Origin: a virus
Direction: 5' to 3' (one strand)
Virus record (IMG/VR): IMGVR_UViG_3300020473_000138
Coordinates: 1-21,972 of that record
DNA length: 21,972 nt
How positions within the stretch are numbered: position 1 is the stretch's first letter; each line of letters opens with the position of its first letter. Both the position numbers and the translations under genes were made by a program. Below are positions 2,333-20,179 of this stretch, piece after piece. The notes below the pieces were generated by a model. It was given only the letters and a program-made list of their open reading frames with translations. It was not told where the DNA came from and searched no databases.

Positions 2333-2874
2333 TGAAATTTTATTCAGTAGATTGTAATTGGAATGAACTTCTTAAAGAAACTGCTAGAGTTTATAAACTT
2401 TGGGAAGGTGTTGTTAAACCTCAAATTCCACCTCATTTAGATTATGATTCTACTCTTTCTAAGAATGCTTACAATCTTATTACTCTCAGCACTCCTTTGC
2501 CAGAGTACTATAAGTTTTGGAGACAGGTATACGAAAACCTTAAAGGGGAATTAGGAACACCTATATGGATACACGCTTGGCTTAATGTACATAGAAAGGA
2601 AGAACTTGGTGTTAAGTCTTTAGAATGGCATAATCATTCTTATGCTGATTATCACGGATTCATTCATATCAGTGATAAAGCTAGTACAACTGAATTTAAA
2701 AATGGTACTATGATACCAAACAATCAAGGTCAGATGTATTTTGGTGACGCTTCATTAGAACATCGTGTAGTTAGTGGACAGTTTGATGGTATTCGTGCTA
2801 GTATAGCGTATGACCTTTTAGTTGATCCTAGACCTGAGCATTTTGGCCAAAACATCTTTGTTCCTATATTATGA
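2332..2874 (+). CDS. 2OG-Fe(II) oxygenase-like protein
   Basis: A 180-residue protein of the putative 2-oxoglutarate/Fe(II) oxygenase type common in T4-like marine phages. The pattern fits a double-stranded beta-helix iron site: WLNVHR near 83-88, a proximal histidine pair H100-N-H102 in WHNHSYADYHGF, a distal histidine H144 in LEHRV, and R155 in IRASIAYDL as the likely 2-oxoglutarate-binding arginine. The expected acidic ligand after the first His is not obvious, so catalysis is uncertain. I chose ATG 2332, which shares TGATG with the methyltransferase stop, over a TTG one codon upstream. The stop overlaps the dam start (ATGA). Being coupled to a DNA methyltransferase on both sides suggests, but does not show, a nucleic-acid substrate; small metabolites or proteins are equally possible. 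Confidence 0.65.
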   Translation: MKFYSVDCNWNELLKETARVYKLWEGVVKPQIPPHLDYDSTLSKNAYNLITLSTPLPEYYKFWRQVYENLKGELGTPIWIHAWLNVHRKEELGVKSLEWHNHSYADYHGFIHISDKASTTEFKNGTMIPNNQGQMYFGDASLEHRVVSGQFDGIRASIAYDLLVDPRPEHFGQNIFVPIL

Positions 2875-3731
2875 AAAAGTTTAAAACACCTCTTAGATAT
2901 CCAGGTGGTAAGTCACGTGCTACTAAGGTACTGCTAGAGTATGTACCTAAGAAGTATGATTATTATGTGGAACCTTTTATAGGTGGTGGTTCTATGGCCA
3001 TTGCTTTGACTAAGATACGTCCTAACCTTAAAGTTACAATCAATGATCTTTACTTCCCAGTGTATGCATTCTGGACTGCGTTAAGAGATGTTGGTCCTCA
3101 GATGCAACAGCACTTGTTTAAAATTAAGACAGACTTATCTGCGTACGATAGCGAAGAAGATATATTAAAAGCACATAAGGATGCATTTGATAAGGCCAAG
3201 GAAAGGTTGAAAGGAAGTGATGACATATACCAAACTGCTATTAACTTTTATATTTGTAATAAATGTTCCTTCTCTGGACTGAGTGAGAACTCTTCTTTCT
3301 CTAAGCAAGCATCTCAATCTAACTTCTCCGTAAATGGGATAAATAGTTTACTGTGGTACTCTCAGGCAATTAGGAATTGGAACATCAAGAATGAGGATTA
3401 TTCTCAGGTAATAAATCCTGATGCGTTTAATTTTCTAGATCCACCTTACAGTATTAAAGATAATCTTTATGGTAGTAAGGGGTCTTTACATAAAACTTTT
3501 TCGCATACTAAGTTGGCCTCTCTCTGTGATGCTTTTGAAGGTAATATGATGATTACTTATAATGCATCTAAGGATATAGAAGAATTATATCCTAAGTTTT
3601 CTAAGTTGAAGTGGGATCTAACCTACACAATGAGGTCAACACAGTCATATGGTGCCGACCAAGACAAGCGTAAAGAACTTCTATTGGTTAACTATACTAT
3701 CAACAACAGTACAGGAGATTGGTACAAGTAA
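2871..3731 (+). CDS. dam: Dam-type N6-adenine DNA methyltransferase (D12 class)
   Basis: A 286-residue alpha-class adenine methyltransferase, close to the usual 260-290 residues of Dam. Motif X is LRYPGGKS (8-15), the SAM-binding motif I is VEPFIGGGS (33-41), an ND pair at 58-59 sits at the end of the next strand, and the catalytic motif IV is LDPPYS (189-194). T4 Dam and bacterial Dam methylate the adenine in GATC. The target here is likely similar, but the recognition region (about 70-180) cannot be read for specificity. The start shares ATGA with the oxygenase gene, and the stop shares TAATG with the next gene. With the beta-class enzyme upstream, the phage encodes two orphan methyltransferases and no visible restriction partner. 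Confidence 0.9.
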   Translation: MKKFKTPLRYPGGKSRATKVLLEYVPKKYDYYVEPFIGGGSMAIALTKIRPNLKVTINDLYFPVYAFWTALRDVGPQMQQHLFKIKTDLSAYDSEEDILKAHKDAFDKAKERLKGSDDIYQTAINFYICNKCSFSGLSENSSFSKQASQSNFSVNGINSLLWYSQAIRNWNIKNEDYSQVINPDAFNFLDPPYSIKDNLYGSKGSLHKTFSHTKLASLCDAFEGNMMITYNASKDIEELYPKFSKLKWDLTYTMRSTQSYGADQDKRKELLLVNYTINNSTGDWYK

Positions 3732-11826: not shown

Positions 11827-12242
11827 CTGAAGAACGTATGATCGTAGATGTCGATCAGTATATGGAGTTTGTGGATCAAACCACAAGTATTCCATCAAAA
11901 AATAATGGTGAGTTTATAGCTCGTATTGCAGAACTAGATAAGAAAGGAGTTGACATCGCACGTCTTATGACTGCTGCTGTTGGTATCAGTGCAGAAGGTG
12001 GAGAGTTTACAGAGATAGTTAAGAAGATTGCTTTTCAAGGTAAGGAACTTACTGATGATGTTAAGTTACATATGTTGAAGGAACTAGGAGATGTATTCTG
12101 GTATTATAGTCAAGCTTGTATGGCACTAGGATTTGATTTCAATAAAGTATTAGCAACTAATATGGCAAAGTTACTTGCTAGATATCCTGATGGAACATTT
12201 CAAGTTGATATGTCTGAGAATCGTAAGCAAGGTGATATCTAA
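11823..12242 (+). CDS. mazG: MazG-like nucleoside triphosphate pyrophosphohydrolase
   Basis: A 139-residue all-alpha NTP pyrophosphohydrolase. The metal-binding motif is complete: E58-x2-E61 in GISAEGGEF, then after 25 residues E87-x2-D90 in ELGDVFWYY. Members hydrolyse (d)NTPs to monophosphates. The cyanophage version was proposed to act on ppGpp, but published biochemistry found preference for deoxynucleotides. The gene shares ATGA with gp41 before it and TAATG with the pyrE-like gene after it, linking nucleotide processing to replication. mazG is frequent in marine T4-like phages and supports that origin. It is a single-domain form, about half the size of E. coli MazG. Confidence 0.9.
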   Translation: MTEERMIVDVDQYMEFVDQTTSIPSKNNGEFIARIAELDKKGVDIARLMTAAVGISAEGGEFTEIVKKIAFQGKELTDDVKLHMLKELGDVFWYYSQACMALGFDFNKVLATNMAKLLARYPDGTFQVDMSENRKQGDI

Positions 12243-12796
12243 TGACCGATCCAGCATACAAAGCAACATTACTCAAACTCATTAAGGAGAGAGCATATAA
12301 GAAAGGTCAGTTTACTCTTTCTTCTGGTCATACAAGTAGCCATTATGTCAACTGCAAACCTGTAACATTATCTTGTGAAGGTAATGCACTTCTATCTACC
12401 TTGATGGTAAAGAAGTTGGATGAAGGGTCTAGAGCAGTTGGTGGTCTTACTCTAGGTGGTGATCCATTGGTTGTTGGTGTAGCACAGAGAGCATTCTATA
12501 AAGGAGGGCACATTGATGCTCTTATTGTTAGGAAGAATCCTAAAAAATATGGTACAAAGGAAGTTATCGAAGGTCCAAAACCTGAGAAGGGTTCTATTGT
12601 CACAGTCCTAGAGGATGTAACTACCACTGGTAGTAGTGCTATGAAGGCGGTTAATGTCCTACGTGATGCAGGTTACGTTGTTAATCGTGTTGTTGCTATC
12701 GTTGATAGGATGGATGATCATAGTATATGGGAAAAGAATAATATACAATTTAGATCCTTATTCACCTTACAGGAAATTATCGATCAAGAAGGATAA
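12242..12796 (+). CDS. pyrE: PyrE-like orotate phosphoribosyltransferase
   Basis: A 184-residue type I phosphoribosyltransferase that would convert orotate and PRPP to OMP, feeding pyrimidine synthesis. The start region FTLSSGHTSSHYVNCKPVTL matches the substrate-binding SGxxSxxYVxxK segment of PyrE. The flexible loop VRKNPKKYGTKEVIEG (96-111) carries the R-K and K-x-x-G residues. The PRPP-binding motif VTVLEDVTTTGSSAMKA is at 120-136 with the acidic pair E124-D125. Its length is slightly below bacterial PyrE (about 210), and the C-terminal arm is short. The start overlaps the mazG stop (TAATG). No other pyrimidine gene is in the window, so it may supplement the host pathway. Orotate specificity is inferred; related phosphoribosyltransferases use other bases. 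Confidence 0.88.
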   Translation: MTDPAYKATLLKLIKERAYKKGQFTLSSGHTSSHYVNCKPVTLSCEGNALLSTLMVKKLDEGSRAVGGLTLGGDPLVVGVAQRAFYKGGHIDALIVRKNPKKYGTKEVIEGPKPEKGSIVTVLEDVTTTGSSAMKAVNVLRDAGYVVNRVVAIVDRMDDHSIWEKNNIQFRSLFTLQEIIDQEG

Positions 12797-12801
12797 AAAC
12801 T

Positions 12802-12810
12802 CTAAATATT
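12802..12810 (+). promoter_or_regulatory. Late-promoter-like motif CTAAATATT
   Basis: CTAAATATT is a variant of the T4 late promoter core TATAAATA. It lies in the 17-base gap after pyrE. It is very close to the ATG at 12814, so the leader would be almost absent unless translation starts further in, for example at ATG 12871. Confidence 0.35.
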
Positions 12811-12813
12811 GGT

Positions 12814-14001
12814 ATGGCATACAATGTTCTACCAAAAACTTTTGAGGAAGCAGGAAAGGCAGTGAAGCATATGGATAAAGTCCGTGCTTCTGAAGCCCTT
12901 AGATTATTTAATGAACTTAAACATCACTATGGTACCGTAGTACCAGATCCAATTGCATTTGATCCTACTAATAAATCTGTTTGTAAAATCACTCGTCAAC
13001 TAGTAGGAAGTTTTACTATAAGAGATATCAAGTCCAGACTTAAGATCAAAAATTTGCAACCTGATTTTGGTAATGGTAGTAGAGGAAACCGAGGAGCAGC
13101 AAACCAAGGTGGTCTCTTTGAAAGAGAGATGGAGAACTTGCTCAATGATTGGATTGAGAATCCAGATCAGTTAAAAAATAATAAGTATAGACATTTTATC
13201 TTTGGTCTTGTAGATCATTATGGTCTGGAGAATTGTACAGCATTGAGAGTAGTACCTGAAGGTGCTGAGAACAAGAAAAGACCAATGAAAATTGTTAATG
13301 GTCAATGGCAGATAGGTGGTGCCTCACCATCTAAAGGATATAATATTGGTGCAACGGTTACTGACGTAACGTTGGTGACACAGTGTAAGGGGGAGCAAGA
13401 AAGGAATACATATCTGTCATTAAAGACAAGTGGTACCACAAACTTATCTAACTTAGGTCTTAAGACCAACGTGTTTCCTGTAGAACAAGTTAAAGCAGGT
13501 AGTATTACTACTGAAGCAGGACTAGCATTGATTAAAACATTTGGTCTAAAGCAAGATTTGCTTTGTGCTACCTTTAATAACTTTCAAGCAGGTAACCGTA
13601 ACTTCCACGAGATTGATAATTCTCCTAGTTATGATCGTAACTTACTTAAGCAATTGATTAAAGGATCTCTTGGTTGGGGATATCATTATGTCCATTTACA
13701 CAATGGACATATACATCATCTAGAAATTGATGAGAAATTTTTAAATGCTGCTTCCGTTGCGTCAGGTGTCAAAGTGGCATATGGTGGTAACACAGGAGGG
13801 GCAAAACGTGTTAATATAAACTTAACAACACCATTATTGGATATGGCTTTTAATATCAGAAATACATCTGATAAGGGAAGTAAAGCAGATCCAGATCGTG
13901 TGTATCCAGACAAGCTACAGTCAGGATATAAGATGAAAGGTGAAAGCATTATGACTAAATTTCCAGGTGACTCAGAGGAGGACGCACACGATAATGTCTA
14001 A
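12814..14001 (+). CDS. Uncharacterised protein, 395 aa, possible PD-(D/E)XK-like nuclease
   Basis: I do not recognise a named family. Several features suggest a nuclease-like core: a Glu-rich helix GLFEREMENLLNDWIE (100-115), a strand ending in D184 (ATVTDVTLVTQ), and a strand YLSLKTSG (200-207) in which S202-x-K204 could stand for the usual D/E-x-K. This pattern is weak and the key acidic residue of the last motif would be missing. Near 289-306 is a histidine-rich stretch (GYHYVHLHNGHIHHLEID) that could bind metal. Residues 86-100 are Gly/Asn/Arg-rich and probably flexible. It starts just after a late-promoter-like motif and overlaps the next, ligase-like gene by 8 bases, so the two are probably made together. 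A virion or packaging role is an alternative. Confidence 0.6.
   Translation: MAYNVLPKTFEEAGKAVKHMDKVRASEALRLFNELKHHYGTVVPDPIAFDPTNKSVCKITRQLVGSFTIRDIKSRLKIKNLQPDFGNGSRGNRGAANQGGLFEREMENLLNDWIENPDQLKNNKYRHFIFGLVDHYGLENCTALRVVPEGAENKKRPMKIVNGQWQIGGASPSKGYNIGATVTDVTLVTQCKGEQERNTYLSLKTSGTTNLSNLGLKTNVFPVEQVKAGSITTEAGLALIKTFGLKQDLLCATFNNFQAGNRNFHEIDNSPSYDRNLLKQLIKGSLGWGYHYVHLHNGHIHHLEIDEKFLNAASVASGVKVAYGGNTGGAKRVNINLTTPLLDMAFNIRNTSDKGSKADPDRVYPDKLQSGYKMKGESIMTKFPGDSEEDAHDNV
13687..13711. repeat. Perfect 10-bp inverted repeat inside the 12814 gene
   Basis: TATGTCCATT (13687-13696) and AATGGACATA (13702-13711) are exact reverse complements around a five-base TACAC loop. They lie in the histidine-rich coding stretch, so the RNA could form a strong hairpin. 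Whether it has a role is unknown. Confidence 0.6.
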
Positions 14002-15202
14002 TGTAAAGCAACTTAAACACCTTGAACACTTAGAAGATGAAATGTTGAACTATGGTTCTGATGGTTGTGCTGCGTCTGTTGCTTTCTTGAAGGAATTATA
14101 TAAGATGCTTGGTAAGACTGCTGATGCAAGAGGATTTTTACAAACCAAATGGGATGGAGCACCATCTGTAGTATGTGGTACTGATCCTAACAGTGGTATG
14201 TTCTTTGTGGGTACTAAGTCTGTCTTTGCTAAGACTGCACCTAAGGTTTGCTACACAGAAGAGGATGTTGATGTATATTATGAGGGAGATCTAGCAGAGA
14301 AGTTGAAGTATTCTCTACGTTACTTCAGTAAGTTGAACATTAGAGGAGTTGTACAGGGAGATTTACTATACACAGACAGTACTTTAAAGACTGAGACTGT
14401 AGATGGTGAGAAATTATATACGTTTAGACCTAATACTATTACGTACGGAATACCTCAGGAACACGACATAGGTAAAGAGGTCAAGCAATCAAAGATTGGT
14501 GTAGTATTCCATACGCATTACAGTGGTACCACTTTTGGAGAGATGCAAGCAAAAGCTGGTGCTCCTATCAAGACATTCTCACGTGCTAGTGAAGTAGCAG
14601 TCATATCTAACGACACTCCCATCAACGAAGTGACCCTTACGGCTCAAGAATGTACCACTTTTGAGCAATATATTCAACGGATAGATCACCTCTGTGGAAA
14701 CTGTGGGGAATTCCTCGATAATATTGTGGAAAACATTGGAACAACTGGTGAAGCTAAGTGGCACGTTGCTAGTTACCTTAAGCAGTTCTTTAATAGTCAG
14801 GTACGTCAAGGTGTGGCTATAGGCAATCCACGTCAAGCACTTGATAACTTGATAGAGTTCTATCACGAGAAGATGAAGAAGGAACTTGCTAAGATCAAGA
14901 CTCCCAAGACACTTGCAGTTAAGCGTAAGTTAGTATTTGAGAGTGAAGTGTACCTAGATAATAACGAAACTAACTTTACTCAGTTGTTGAAACTCTATAA
15001 AGAGATACAAGATGTTAAACAATTTATTATAGACAAACTAGATCACCTAGAAAGATTCAGAACTTACGTAGAAACTGAAAAGGGATACAAGGTTACTACA
15101 CCTGAGGGTTATGTACTACATCAAGATGGTGATATGATCAAACTGGTTAACCGTCTTGAGTTTGCATACAACAACTTTACTATTCAGAAGCAATGGCGTT
15201 AG
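13994..15202 (+). CDS. Ligase-type nucleotidyltransferase-like protein, 402 aa
   Basis: Not a classical T4 ligase, but it carries the ordered motifs of the covalent nucleotidyltransferase superfamily (DNA/RNA ligases and capping enzymes). Motif I is TKWDG (51-55, K52 as candidate nucleotide-accepting lysine), GTKSVF follows at 73-78, motif III-like is VVQGDLLYT (119-127), motif IIIa-like is IGVVFH (168-173), motif IV is EGYVL (371-375) and motif V is IKLVNR (382-387). About 200 residues lie between IIIa and IV, far more than in known ligases; they look helical and include a Cys pair (CGNCGEF). I chose ATG 13994, which overlaps the previous stop by 8 bases, over ATG 13967. It overlaps the next gene, a nucleotidyltransferase, by 10 bases. 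The substrate is unknown, and it could have lost catalysis. Confidence 0.6.
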   Translation: MSNVKQLKHLEHLEDEMLNYGSDGCAASVAFLKELYKMLGKTADARGFLQTKWDGAPSVVCGTDPNSGMFFVGTKSVFAKTAPKVCYTEEDVDVYYEGDLAEKLKYSLRYFSKLNIRGVVQGDLLYTDSTLKTETVDGEKLYTFRPNTITYGIPQEHDIGKEVKQSKIGVVFHTHYSGTTFGEMQAKAGAPIKTFSRASEVAVISNDTPINEVTLTAQECTTFEQYIQRIDHLCGNCGEFLDNIVENIGTTGEAKWHVASYLKQFFNSQVRQGVAIGNPRQALDNLIEFYHEKMKKELAKIKTPKTLAVKRKLVFESEVYLDNNETNFTQLLKLYKEIQDVKQFIIDKLDHLERFRTYVETEKGYKVTTPEGYVLHQDGDMIKLVNRLEFAYNNFTIQKQWR

Positions 15203-15762
15203 AAAAACTATACGATTGTTGCTTCTTTACCTTTGGTAGGTTCCAGCCACCCACTACAGGACACGAGGAGAATATAAAAGGGGTCAAAACAGCAGCTTCT
15301 AAATGTGACTGGAGGATCTATACATCAAAGACGCAAGATAAAAGTGGTAAGAATCCATTAAAACCAGACAGTAAAGTAGCGTGGATGAGGAAAATGTTCC
15401 GTACCTATGCTACAAACATAGTTGGTGCTCAAAAATCTGTGATTGAATGCTTACAAGACATACAAGCAGCAGGTTATGAGGATGCAACGTTGGTTGTTGG
15501 TTCGGATCGTGTTAATGCATTTCAGTGGATTCATAAATACAATGGTAAGGACTATTATTTCAGGAAATTAGACATTGTTTCCTCTGGTAATCGTGATGCA
15601 GACGGTGATACGTTTGCAATCTCTGGTACTAAGATGAGACGTGCAGCATTTGCTGAAGACTTTCCTACTTTTCGTGCAGGTATTCCAAAAGCATTGAGCG
15701 ATGGAGAATGTATGAAGCTGATGAACGAGATTAAGAGTGCGTTACCATCTAATTTCAAATGA
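15193..15762 (+). CDS. NMNAT/cytidylyltransferase-like nucleotidyltransferase
   Basis: A 189-residue Rossmann-fold nucleotidyltransferase. The N-terminal motif TFGRFQPPTTGHEE (13-26) is the family's G-R-F-x-P-x-T/H-x-G-H signature, with T22 and H24 expected to contact the ATP phosphates. VVGSDR (101-106) is the middle nucleotide-binding strand, and ISGTKMR (143-149) is the C-terminal ISSTxxR motif. Family members join an NTP to NMN, pantetheine phosphate, glycerol phosphate or similar groups; the specificity here cannot be read. It overlaps the ligase-like gene by 10 bases and shares ATGA with the next. In marine T4-like phages such genes are usually labelled cytidylyltransferase or NMN adenylyltransferase. 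Paired with a ligase-like protein, a role in making or using an adenylylated cofactor is possible. Confidence 0.82.
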   Translation: MALEKLYDCCFFTFGRFQPPTTGHEENIKGVKTAASKCDWRIYTSKTQDKSGKNPLKPDSKVAWMRKMFRTYATNIVGAQKSVIECLQDIQAAGYEDATLVVGSDRVNAFQWIHKYNGKDYYFRKLDIVSSGNRDADGDTFAISGTKMRRAAFAEDFPTFRAGIPKALSDGECMKLMNEIKSALPSNFK

Positions 15763-16118: not shown

Positions 16119-16336
16119 GAATCTTACACCGATTACCACTTGATGAATGGTTTGATGATGTTCCACACCCCCACGATACTATGCCTATTGCAACAGACTC
16201 TAATGAGAATCCTAGACCAGAGGAAGAAATAGCAGATATACATCAAAAGATGTATGAGATTGCTACATCAAAATACAATCCTTTTTCCATAGGAGGATCA
16301 GAAAACATTCACGATTTCGATAAGAACAATGGCTGA
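16115..16336 (+). CDS. Small acidic hypothetical protein, 73 aa
   Basis: A 73-residue protein beginning MRILHRLPLDEWFDDVPHPH, with a Pro/Glu/Asn-rich middle and a helix (PEEEIADIHQKMYEIATSKY). It shares ATGA with the gene before and overlaps the fibre-like gene by 8 bases. I see no cysteine cluster, membrane segment or recognisable family. Its place inside a string of late genes is the only functional hint. Confidence 0.6.
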   Translation: MRILHRLPLDEWFDDVPHPHDTMPIATDSNENPRPEEEIADIHQKMYEIATSKYNPFSIGGSENIHDFDKNNG

Positions 16337-16859
16337 TACTTATAGACCCTTTCTAGAAAAGTTGGGTGGTACCTCTGCTGCTACTTTTGTAGGTAACAAG
16401 GGAGAATTATTTTACGATCCTGATTCAACTACCCTGAAAATTTCTGATGGAAGCACCGCAGGTGGTGTAGGAATCGGTGGTGGTGCTGGTACTACTGATA
16501 AAATAGATGAAGGTAATACTTCAGTAGAAGTTGTTGATACTGGTAGTAATGGTACGATTAAATTCGAGACAGAAGGCACTGATCGTTGGAAGATCACTAG
16601 TGCTGGTCACATCATTCCATATGCTAATGCAGCATATGATTTAGGTAATGCAGAGTATAAGGTAAGACACTTGTTCTTATCTGACAATACTCTTTACTTT
16701 GAGGGAGATTTCCTTAAAGTAGCACAACATAATGAAGGTGGTGCAGCACAATCGCCAAGCTATATGATCCCTCTTGCTAAGTTGAAGGATGCTTTAAATG
16801 CATCTGCTGACTTTGAAGCATTCAAAGCAGCAATTCTTGCGATTACTGATGCTAGTTAA
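16329..16859 (+). CDS. Fibre-like virion structural protein, 176 aa
   Basis: The N-terminal half reads like a phage fibre-attachment unit: GNKGELFYDPDSTTLKISDG, then a glycine-rich stretch (GGVGIGGGAG). The middle, DRWKITSAGHIIPYANAAYD followed by LGNAEYKVRHLFLSDNTLYF, is a beta-helix-type repeat common in tail fibre and receptor-binding proteins, where it is usually part of much longer chains. At 176 residues this is a short, possibly accessory fibre or a head or collar decoration. The C-terminus is alanine-rich and helical (ADFEAFKAAILAITD). The start overlaps the previous gene by 8 bases and the stop is directly followed by the next ATG. The structural call comes from residue pattern, not from a firm family match. 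Confidence 0.6.
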   Translation: MADTYRPFLEKLGGTSAATFVGNKGELFYDPDSTTLKISDGSTAGGVGIGGGAGTTDKIDEGNTSVEVVDTGSNGTIKFETEGTDRWKITSAGHIIPYANAAYDLGNAEYKVRHLFLSDNTLYFEGDFLKVAQHNEGGAAQSPSYMIPLAKLKDALNASADFEAFKAAILAITDAS

Positions 16860-17093
16860 ATGAAATCATTTAAACAATTTCGTGTAGAAATAAAAGAGCA
16901 TTTTGAACGTGAGGTTCAAGAGGATTTCCATTTTAATAATGTATTTCTTGAAGGTGACTGGGTGAAGAACACTACCAACGGTAAGTGTGGTAAGGTAATT
17001 CGTCGTGGACCTAACTATATAATAGCACTAGCAGAAGACAACAAGATCTTTAGATCTTGGGTAAAAGATCTAGAGGAGTACTCAGTACTATGA
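16860..17093 (+). CDS. Small hypothetical protein with SH3/KOW-like region, 77 aa
   Basis: The protein starts MKSFKQFRVEIKEHFEREVQ, an amphipathic helix resembling the capsid-targeting peptide of T4 internal proteins (MKTYQEF type). I-K-E at 11-13 fits the L/I-x-E pattern cut by the T4 prohead protease gp21. The rest (GDWVKNTTNGKCGKVIRRGP, then NYIIALAEDNKIFRSWV) looks like a small SH3 or KOW-type beta barrel. No function is certain; a protein carried inside the head is a fair hypothesis. The start follows the previous stop directly (TAAATG) and the end shares ATGA with the next gene. Confidence 0.65.
   Translation: MKSFKQFRVEIKEHFEREVQEDFHFNNVFLEGDWVKNTTNGKCGKVIRRGPNYIIALAEDNKIFRSWVKDLEEYSVL
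17042..17059. repeat. Inverted repeat CAAGATCT-TT-AGATCTTG
   Basis: Eight-base arms are exact reverse complements around TT. A third AGATCT follows at 17066-17071. All lie in the last codons of the 16860 gene, just before the Shine-Dalgarno (GAGGAG, 17073-17078) of the next gene, so a folded RNA could affect its translation. Confidence 0.5.
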
Positions 17094-19744: not shown

Positions 19745-20179
19745 ATGGCTGAGAGTATTAACGCTGCTATAATAGAGCGGCTGGAAAAAGTAGTTAGTAC
19801 TCTTCAGGAAAATTCTATGAAGATGGGGCAGCTGCTTGCTGTCCATAATGAAAAATTAGACAAACAGGATAGGATAGATGCGGTATTATTCGAGAAAGTT
19901 GAATCGCTTCATAGAGAGGTCAACCGTCAGAGTAAAGAGATTAAGGCAGGATGTGAGAGAGATATTCGCAAGGTAGATGAAAGACTTCGTATTATGGAAA
20001 AGAAGATGTGGACAATTGCTGGTGCAATTTCCATCATAAGTTTTGTTGTGAGTCCAGTAGGGCAGAAGTTTGTAAAACCTATGTTGACACCACCACCACA
20101 ATCTGATACAATATCATTGACCTCCACTTCTGCTGATGCAATTTTTAGACCAGCAGTACGTAAATCTCTTGTCTCCTAG
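19745..20179 (+). CDS. Coiled-coil protein with one membrane segment, 144 aa
   Basis: Residues 1-87 form a long charged helix with heptad spacing of Leu, Ile and Val (IERLEKVVSTLQENSMKMGQ and on to DERLRIMEKKM), probably a coiled coil. Residues 88-105 (WTIAGAISIISFVVSPVG) are a single hydrophobic membrane segment, followed by a short Pro/Ser/Thr-rich end. This layout recalls small phage membrane proteins such as haemolysin XhlA-type or holin accessory proteins, but identity is not certain. The last 44 bases overlap the start of the primase gene in another frame. A lysis or envelope role is an inference. Confidence 0.65.
   Translation: MAESINAAIIERLEKVVSTLQENSMKMGQLLAVHNEKLDKQDRIDAVLFEKVESLHREVNRQSKEIKAGCERDIRKVDERLRIMEKKMWTIAGAISIISFVVSPVGQKFVKPMLTPPPQSDTISLTSTSADAIFRPAVRKSLVS

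Follow-up and report, generated by a model that had tools for sequence, protein, structure and literature searches.

Phages that join a nuclease to an enzyme of the ligase superfamily are on record, the nearest precedent that we have seen being the HNH-Rnl2 fusions of jumbo phages, which PMC7824862 interprets as combining the repair of RNA with an attack on host or superinfecting DNA. Here we describe three overlapping genes in a 21,972-base virus record of a T4-like phage (IMG/VR record IMGVR_UViG_3300020473_000138; hereafter, the window) that likewise bring a nuclease-like and a ligase-type protein together. Whereas those fusions, as presented there, consist of HNH and Rnl2 parts, the set in the window combines a protein from one of several interchangeable PD-(D/E)XK-type groups with a DUF6267 protein and a third, NMNAT-like part. 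We propose that the set exemplifies a widespread phage module, in which a swappable nuclease would cut, a constant DUF6267 protein would act on the ends and a constant NMNAT-like protein would supply the cofactor. We hold this reading as a whole to be evenly balanced; that the three parts form a linked module is, taken by itself, very probable.

Each part also has relatives in other described systems. The type II restriction enzymes HinP1I and MspI share with gene 1 its predicted fold and an invariant D...xK site, and the spacing of 18 between D and S in gene 1 equals what we take to be the D-to-N spacing of MspI. However, gene 1 is just 11-14% identical to these enzymes, the set contains no methyltransferase, and its other members are ligase-like and NMNAT-like. 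T4 Rnl2, the Naegleria RNA ligase and ATP-dependent DNA ligases share with DUF6267 a nucleotidyltransferase core and motifs I (KWDG), III, IV (EGxV) and V (K), but in DUF6267 motifs IIIa and IV are separated by a long helical insert, an oligonucleotide-binding (OB) domain is lacking and an N-terminal HxEHxED stretch is conserved. Phage modules for the synthesis of nicotinamide adenine dinucleotide (NAD), of the NAMPT-NMNAT and NadR-like kinds, likewise contain an NMNAT-like protein of the HIGH superfamily, and a P-loop gene adjoins the relative of gene 3 in some phages. Here, by contrast, the set has no NAMPT, curated NMNAT models stay below cut-off and the constant partner is DUF6267.

An earlier note on this DNA, which had picked out the set, knew of no named phage system with this combination. 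We likewise found none in the open-licence literature of PubMed Central, nor any paper there on DUF6267 (PF19782) or on "cyanophage" together with "cytitidyltransferase", and a description elsewhere is possible. The folds are known ones; the system itself we regard as of a new kind, its function being our inference.

The three genes and their predicted products

The genes lie in the window as follows.

Gene 1: 12814 to 14001, plus strand; 395 amino acids; predicted restriction-endonuclease fold; slot family A1, phrog_8438; candidate active site E103, D184, S202-x-K204.
Gene 2: 13994 to 15202, plus strand; DUF6267, 402 amino acids from the ATG; predicted ligase-type nucleotidyltransferase fold; K52-W-D54-G55, Q121-G-D123, E371-G372, K383.
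Gene 3: 15193 to 15762, plus strand; 189 amino acids; NMNAT/cytidylyltransferase-like HIGH-superfamily nucleotidyltransferase by its sequence; TTGH and ISGTKMR motifs.

Genes 1 and 2 overlap by 8 bases and genes 2 and 3 by 10 bases when gene 2 is begun at its ATG (13994); the longest form of this open reading frame (ORF) begins with a GTG at 13967 and also ends at 15202. Most of the length of each product is covered by a match to a protein family (gene 1, phrog_8438, E=6e-73; gene 2, DUF6267, E=2.5e-126; gene 3, phrog_3041, E=6e-59) and many contigs carry relatives of the three genes in the same order, so that the set is more than a chance arrangement. The ORFs, family matches and same-order relatives thus bear out the three overlapping genes of the earlier note, and the fold models and invariant motifs support its guesses of nuclease-, ligase- and NMNAT-like enzymes.

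By sequence, gene 1 matches only phrog_8438, a phage family without a name, and it drew just a weak DpdD match in a PADLOC scan. Its AlphaFold2 model (predicted local distance difference test, pLDDT, 83.7) is similar to solved PD-(D/E)XK members: Foldseek returned MspI as the sole match below 0.001 (E=5e-4, probability 1.00), and the top three VIA-align rows were HinP1I (Z 10.1, 215 residues, 4.3 A), MspI (9.5) and HinP1I again (8.4); Holliday resolvases and EcoRV came next, at Z of about 5.5. The tool cautions against reading much into a Z below 8; the top three rows lie above that value and are all of one kind, and the absence of a fold from such lists does not exclude that fold. In a 34-sequence alignment E103, D184, S202 and K204 are invariant, which gives a conserved acidic residue and a D...(E/Q/N/S)xK site, with S in place of E as a variant. 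Judged on its model, gene 1 has a PD-(D/E)XK restriction-endonuclease fold, and its cleavage of DNA is a prediction.

In DUF6267, K52, D54, G55, Q121, D123, E371, G372 and K383 are unvarying in 133 sequences. We take these residues to be motifs I (K52/D54/G55), III (Q121/D123), IV (E371/G372) and V (K383), so that the KxDG of motif I and motifs III, IV and V of the covalent nucleotidyltransferase superfamily are all present. The AlphaFold2 model of gene 2 (pLDDT 92.3; predicted template modelling score 0.88) had no match with E <0.001 in Foldseek alone. In VIA-align, 48 of 50 rows were RNA or DNA ligases, consistent with a nucleotidyltransferase fold, with a best Z of 7.2, which is modest. The closest neighbours were RNA ligases (Naegleria RNA ligase, Z 7.2; T4 Rnl2, Z 6.4), and DNA-ligase rows scored just below them. 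The helical insert spans residues ~217-350, and the chain ends 19 residues past the motif V lysine, the model having no further domain of the OB or an equivalent end-joining type. Because the motifs are invariant and the model has ligase neighbours, we assign DUF6267 as a ligase-type covalent nucleotidyltransferase, for which self-adenylylation and sealing are predicted. A profile search against solved structures (PDB) gave nothing usable for genes 1, 2 and 3 or slot family C1, and no ligase match for DUF6267.

Gene 3 matches PF01467 at E=1.4e-4, above that model's cut-off, and TTGH and ISGTKMR can be read directly in the protein, in agreement with what we take to be the NMNAT consensus, (H/T)xGH and ISxTxxR. 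The curated NMNAT models of NCBIfam remained below cut-off (TIGR01526, 21.9 bits vs 341; TIGR01527, 13.4 vs 181). Its sequence points to an NMNAT/cytidylyltransferase-like nucleotidyltransferase of the HIGH superfamily that may have NMNAT activity. In many other phages the NMNAT-like protein is longer, and its extra C-terminal domain is in the window a separate ORF.

Small ORF: 16860 to 17093, plus strand; 77 amino acids; homologue of the C-terminal domain fused to NMNAT-like proteins elsewhere; N-terminus MKSFKQFRVE.

This ORF matched six of the six longer NMNAT-like proteins tested (BLASTP/phmmer; phmmer E 3e-17 to 6e-8), and its MKSFKQFRVE start resembles what is presumably the T4 capsid-targeting leader.

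A variable slot upstream of DUF6267

The position occupied by gene 1 was compared across 335 DUF6267 loci with distinct gene 2 sequences, drawn from viral contigs, one genome scan and annotated phages; as each scan contributed its best 80 loci at most, the sample is not random. DUF6267 proteins of 370 amino acids or more were called long (226 loci) and the others short (109 loci), and a slot ORF was defined as one of 240 amino acids or more directly upstream. Such an ORF is present in 173 of the 197 long loci with room upstream and in 46 of the 86 short loci with room. The slot ORFs form 13 BLAST families (A0-A3, C1-C7, C9 and C10), which become nine groups when pairs related by profile comparison (A2-A3, C2-C6, C4-C9 and A2-C5) are merged; most families are unrelated. 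A0-A3 were counted apart, their single-linkage merger at E=1e-4 dissolving at 1e-6, and one-member clusters and the methyltransferase-like cluster C8 were left out. The family of gene 1 is therefore one of nine or more interchangeable groups, and the constant co-occurrence of three families that the earlier note looked for is not found. Because the slot family varies while the other two stay, what the loci support is one system made of a variable nuclease, a constant ligase-like protein and a constant NMNAT-like protein.

Among the 11 slot families that have four sequences or more (a fused C-terminal domain being counted as one family), an automatic search detected a conserved D...(S/E/N/Q/T/D)xK site with hydrophobic flanks in nine, compared with 0 of 23 control families of the same loci (Fisher p=1e-6). 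In the full test 12 of 14 families passed; C7, C9 and C10, with 3, 2 and 2 sequences, are left out of the quoted figure, and the automatic site of C10 differs from the one chosen by eye. Families A0 and C1 fell below the automatic threshold; only the consensus shows their sites, D...SLK and D...ISHK. Two C1 proteins match a PADLOC model of Type II restriction enzymes (1.6e-7 and 3.3e-9). In at least one case, that of L251, the slot ORF resembles a membrane monooxygenase and no nuclease. At three short loci (L333, L337 and L341) the nuclease is replaced by an ORF from a cluster whose shown member resembles a DNA methyltransferase.

Differing slot families were found in 8 of 175 locus pairs at 90-100% DUF6267 identity and in 409 of 947 pairs at 80-90%. 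When ten slot-differing pairs were aligned by DNA, nine had homologous flanks on both sides, and the tenth (L165/L166) begins too near the slot to tell. The pair L278/L280 has a 95% identical upstream flank that stops at the slot start and a 97% identical downstream flank that begins at the slot stop, both within a few bases; for L163/L164 and L291/L292 the upstream match stops several hundred bases short of the slot. These alignments indicate that phages whose flanks are closely similar exchange the slot gene with gene-level precision, while DUF6267 and the NMNAT-like gene stay.

The constant pair and its fused forms

The NMNAT-like gene is adjacent to DUF6267 in 148 long loci, elsewhere on the locus in 45, absent from 16 and untestable in 17; the corresponding numbers for the short loci are 50, 3, 44 and 12. 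Both genes are present in 18 of 18 annotated phage records that were picked for having either of them, and in 13 of the 18 they share one neighbourhood, including XaC1 (~3.5 kb apart) and Syn10 (across the record's ends). Among 50,697 phage records, 467 match DUF6267 and 515 the NMNAT-like protein; these are mostly cyanophages, whose hosts are the sea's most numerous photosynthetic cells. A P-loop ORF stands between the pair in 25 of 43 non-adjacent loci, and the one in HTVC008M matches Zeta_toxin/AAA_33. Such intervening genes in L003, L222, L224, L229, L231 and others are adenylate-kinase-like and Zeta-toxin/kinase-like.

In four ORFs of 936-955 amino acids on contigs from metagenome-assembled genomes (MAGs), DUF6267 and the NMNAT-like domain form one chain with a C-terminal part, in which a stretch of the type GDxxxxDxQxEVK is conserved; one of these contigs also bears T4-type topoisomerase II genes. 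A viral-contig scan gave seven further fused ORFs among 80 loci, three without the C-terminal part and one cut, and a second scan for fused relatives with L388 as query found none. The 292-517 extra C-terminal residues of the fused ORFs in L493, L494 and L495 match marine slot families by profile (L493-A0, 5e-13; L494-C9, 2e-8, and -C4, 1e-6; L495-C9, 4e-4), and L385 and L493, 82% identical over their shared core, have C-terminal parts without a mutual BLAST match. Because of these matches and this dissimilarity, the third domain of the fused protein appears to be a slot-type, predicted nuclease that varies there too. A gut or rumen origin is stated in the MAG titles of L385-L389 and is presumed for L493-L495 from their close relation to these.

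Proposed mechanism and rival explanations

The enzyme folds, the motifs, the gene order, the gene-precise swapping of the nuclease and the fusion of the parts are supported computationally. What we infer beyond these is DNA cleavage by the nucleases, the action of DUF6267 on the resulting ends, the cofactor cycle and the target. The slot nuclease, here one with a HinP1I/MspI-like fold, would act within the infected cell and cleave DNA at short sites. Its target would most likely be host or rival DNA, since nuclease swapping fits a change of target. PD-(D/E)XK enzymes leave 5'-phosphate and 3'-hydroxyl ends, which are the substrate of ligase-type enzymes, and unrelated nucleases with one partner must share something, namely the type of end made; for this reason we suggest that DUF6267 processes the ends left by the slot nuclease. 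It would take up AMP on Lys52 and then seal or 5'-adenylylate the cut ends, capping (with 5'-adenylylated ends left) being an alternative to sealing because DUF6267 has no OB domain. The NMNAT-like enzyme would supply the nucleotide cofactor. A ligase using NAD+ releases nicotinamide mononucleotide (NMN), which an NMNAT can recycle; if DUF6267 uses NAD+, which is a guess, the released NMN would be turned back into NAD+ by the NMNAT-like enzyme. This cut-then-seal or cut-then-cap chemistry is plausible and falls a little short of probable.

It is possible, and rather doubtful, that the module is a new type of phage conflict system, with an exchangeable restriction nuclease, ends capped or sealed by a ligase-type enzyme and a built-in NAD+ cycle. 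If so, restriction-like cutting inside the phage would be coupled to end processing and NAD, a nuclease swap would change the DNA attacked much as bacterial restriction changes its specificity, and the constant partner would be an end-processing enzyme and no methyltransferase. Read as a module, three annotations of the "hypothetical protein" and "cytidylyltransferase" kind become one system, DUF6267 gains a predicted chemistry, and the slot families form a pool of unexplored predicted nucleases.

Several observations weigh against the proposed module. Short DUF6267 loci often have no slot ORF (40 of the 86 with room) or no NMNAT-like gene on the locus (44 of 109), and the constant pair is unlinked, 65-119 kb apart, in five of the 18 annotated records (P-SSM2, S-SSM7, ME01, S-SKS1 and S-CREM2). 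Fourteen of the 16 slot or fused proteins scanned, including gene 1, matched no restriction-enzyme model of PADLOC. Full ligation by DUF6267 is doubtful, given a model without the OB domain of most nick-sealing ligases. In S-SZBM1 the DUF6267 and slot proteins are, by gene order and sequence, _141 and _142, and neither is in the virion protein table of the published source. Self-avoidance of palindromes (see below) was considered as a sign of the site specificity of gene 1 and rejected, since the depletion does not follow the slot gene. Finally, all activities of the module are predictions from sequences and models. The earlier note's idea of one functional system thus stands in part: the conserved order, the presence of the pair in every annotated record and the domain fusions speak for it, and the unlinked pairs speak against it. 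Nothing ties the gene set to DNA packaging, a link that the note had also suggested.

The same evidence can be read differently. The constant pair might be a core for RNA repair and NAD counter-defence, in which DUF6267, as an RNA ligase, mends tRNAs that host defence systems have cut and the NMNAT-like protein restores NAD+, the slot nuclease being independent cargo directed against rival phages. The RNA ligases at the head of the structural neighbours of gene 2 suit this reading, as do the P-loop ORFs between the pair, among them the Zeta_toxin/AAA_33 match of HTVC008M, and the phage NAD modules and HNH-Rnl2 fusions described in the relevant sections of PMC7824862. However, the DNA-ligase rows follow closely, and independent cargo leaves unexplained both the filled slot in most long loci and the slot-family domains fused to DUF6267-NMNAT; we consider this reading unlikely. 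A virion-delivered takeover set is, in our view, distinctly improbable; in this reading the capsid would carry all of the parts, or some of them, into the cell, where host DNA would be cut and NAD adjusted early in infection. A leader of the form MKxFxxFLxE, which we take to be the T4 capsid-targeting signal, begins 66 of the 74 NMNAT-like proteins of middle length, but only 2 of the 108 short ones; it also begins 39 of 210 long DUF6267 proteins and is missing from the products of genes 1, 2 and 3 of the window. The background was 98 of 2139 other ORFs, a set still containing DUF6267 and slot ORFs. N-termini of this type occur on enzymes and other proteins alike. NMNAT-like proteins have indeed been reported in the virion proteomes of S-SZBM1 (PMC9146016), S-CREM2 (PMC10665884) and S-SCSM1 (PMC9602691), although the authors of the S-CREM2 study themselves allow for carry-over, and the DUF6267 and slot proteins of S-SZBM1 are missing from its table, as noted above. 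Among the virion proteins strongly detected in that table is S-SZBM1_139 (L392:4989-6362), whose gene directly follows the NMNAT-like one.

Two further readings deny any functional tie within the proposed module. The slot could be a landing site of free-standing homing-type endonucleases that cut slot-less relatives, which would account for the gene-precise replacement and the many unrelated nuclease-like families. Empty sites should then be common, but the slot is seldom empty in long loci (24 of the 197 with room), and domains of these families occur elsewhere in one chain with the constant parts, which makes this very improbable. That the genes are merely unlinked neighbours in a crowded replication region, co-occurring through common phage descent, would agree with nearly all annotated matching records being cyanophages and their relatives and with the constant pair being separable; it is hardly credible given that both constant parts are kept in all 18 records, even where unlinked, and that fusions occur in gut or rumen contigs.

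Palindrome avoidance and methyltransferase genes

The window has no CATG, with 67 expected, and no CCGG, GCGC or CGCG, with about 6-9 expected of each; taken together with a relative, contig G001 (61.7 kb), all four are absent against 263, 36, 33 and 26 expected. When depletion was defined as <=2% of expected, for words with 15 or more expected, 15 of 22 contigs (G001-G022, L393-L492) were without or nearly without at least one four-base palindrome, other contigs being without TCGA, CTNAG-type or other palindromes over 40-180 kb. The depleted words are nearly all palindromes or interrupted palindromes. These word counts point to avoidance of a restriction type that does not follow the slot family. 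HinP1I and MspI, the nearest folds of gene 1, presumably recognise GCGC and CCGG. CATG is also absent from the window relatives L042 and L051, which bear another slot family, and contigs whose slot proteins are 90-94% identical differ in whether they contain TCGA. The three-gene set itself contains no methyltransferase; in the 22 contigs PF01555 was found in six, other methyltransferase families not having been searched there. Two methyltransferase genes lie ~10 kb upstream of the set in the window.

1397 to 2332: DNA methyltransferase, N6/N4 type.
2871 to 3731: DNA methyltransferase, Dam/D12 type.

Other features of the window

Searches identified genes of MazG, phosphoribosyltransferase and primase types in the window, and polymerase-, RecA- and helicase-like ORFs were picked out by eye in its ORF list. 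A phosphoribosyltransferase-like gene (phrog_32468) lies at 12242-12796, between mazG and gene 1; in the relatives compared, such a gene is not annotated at that place. The late-promoter-like motif that the earlier note placed before the set exists, as CTAAATA at 12802-12808, five bases 5' of the gene 1 ATG; the window has six copies on the plus strand and none on the minus strand. A T4-type late -10 box stands farther than five bases from the start codon. A late promoter directly driving the set was thus rejected, the motif being too close to the ATG for a normal -10 box. Of the note's remark that structural-type genes follow, the weak Mtd_N and tail-type matches of the ORF at 16329-16859 are in favor, whereas a gp61-type primase gene follows farther downstream, at 20136.

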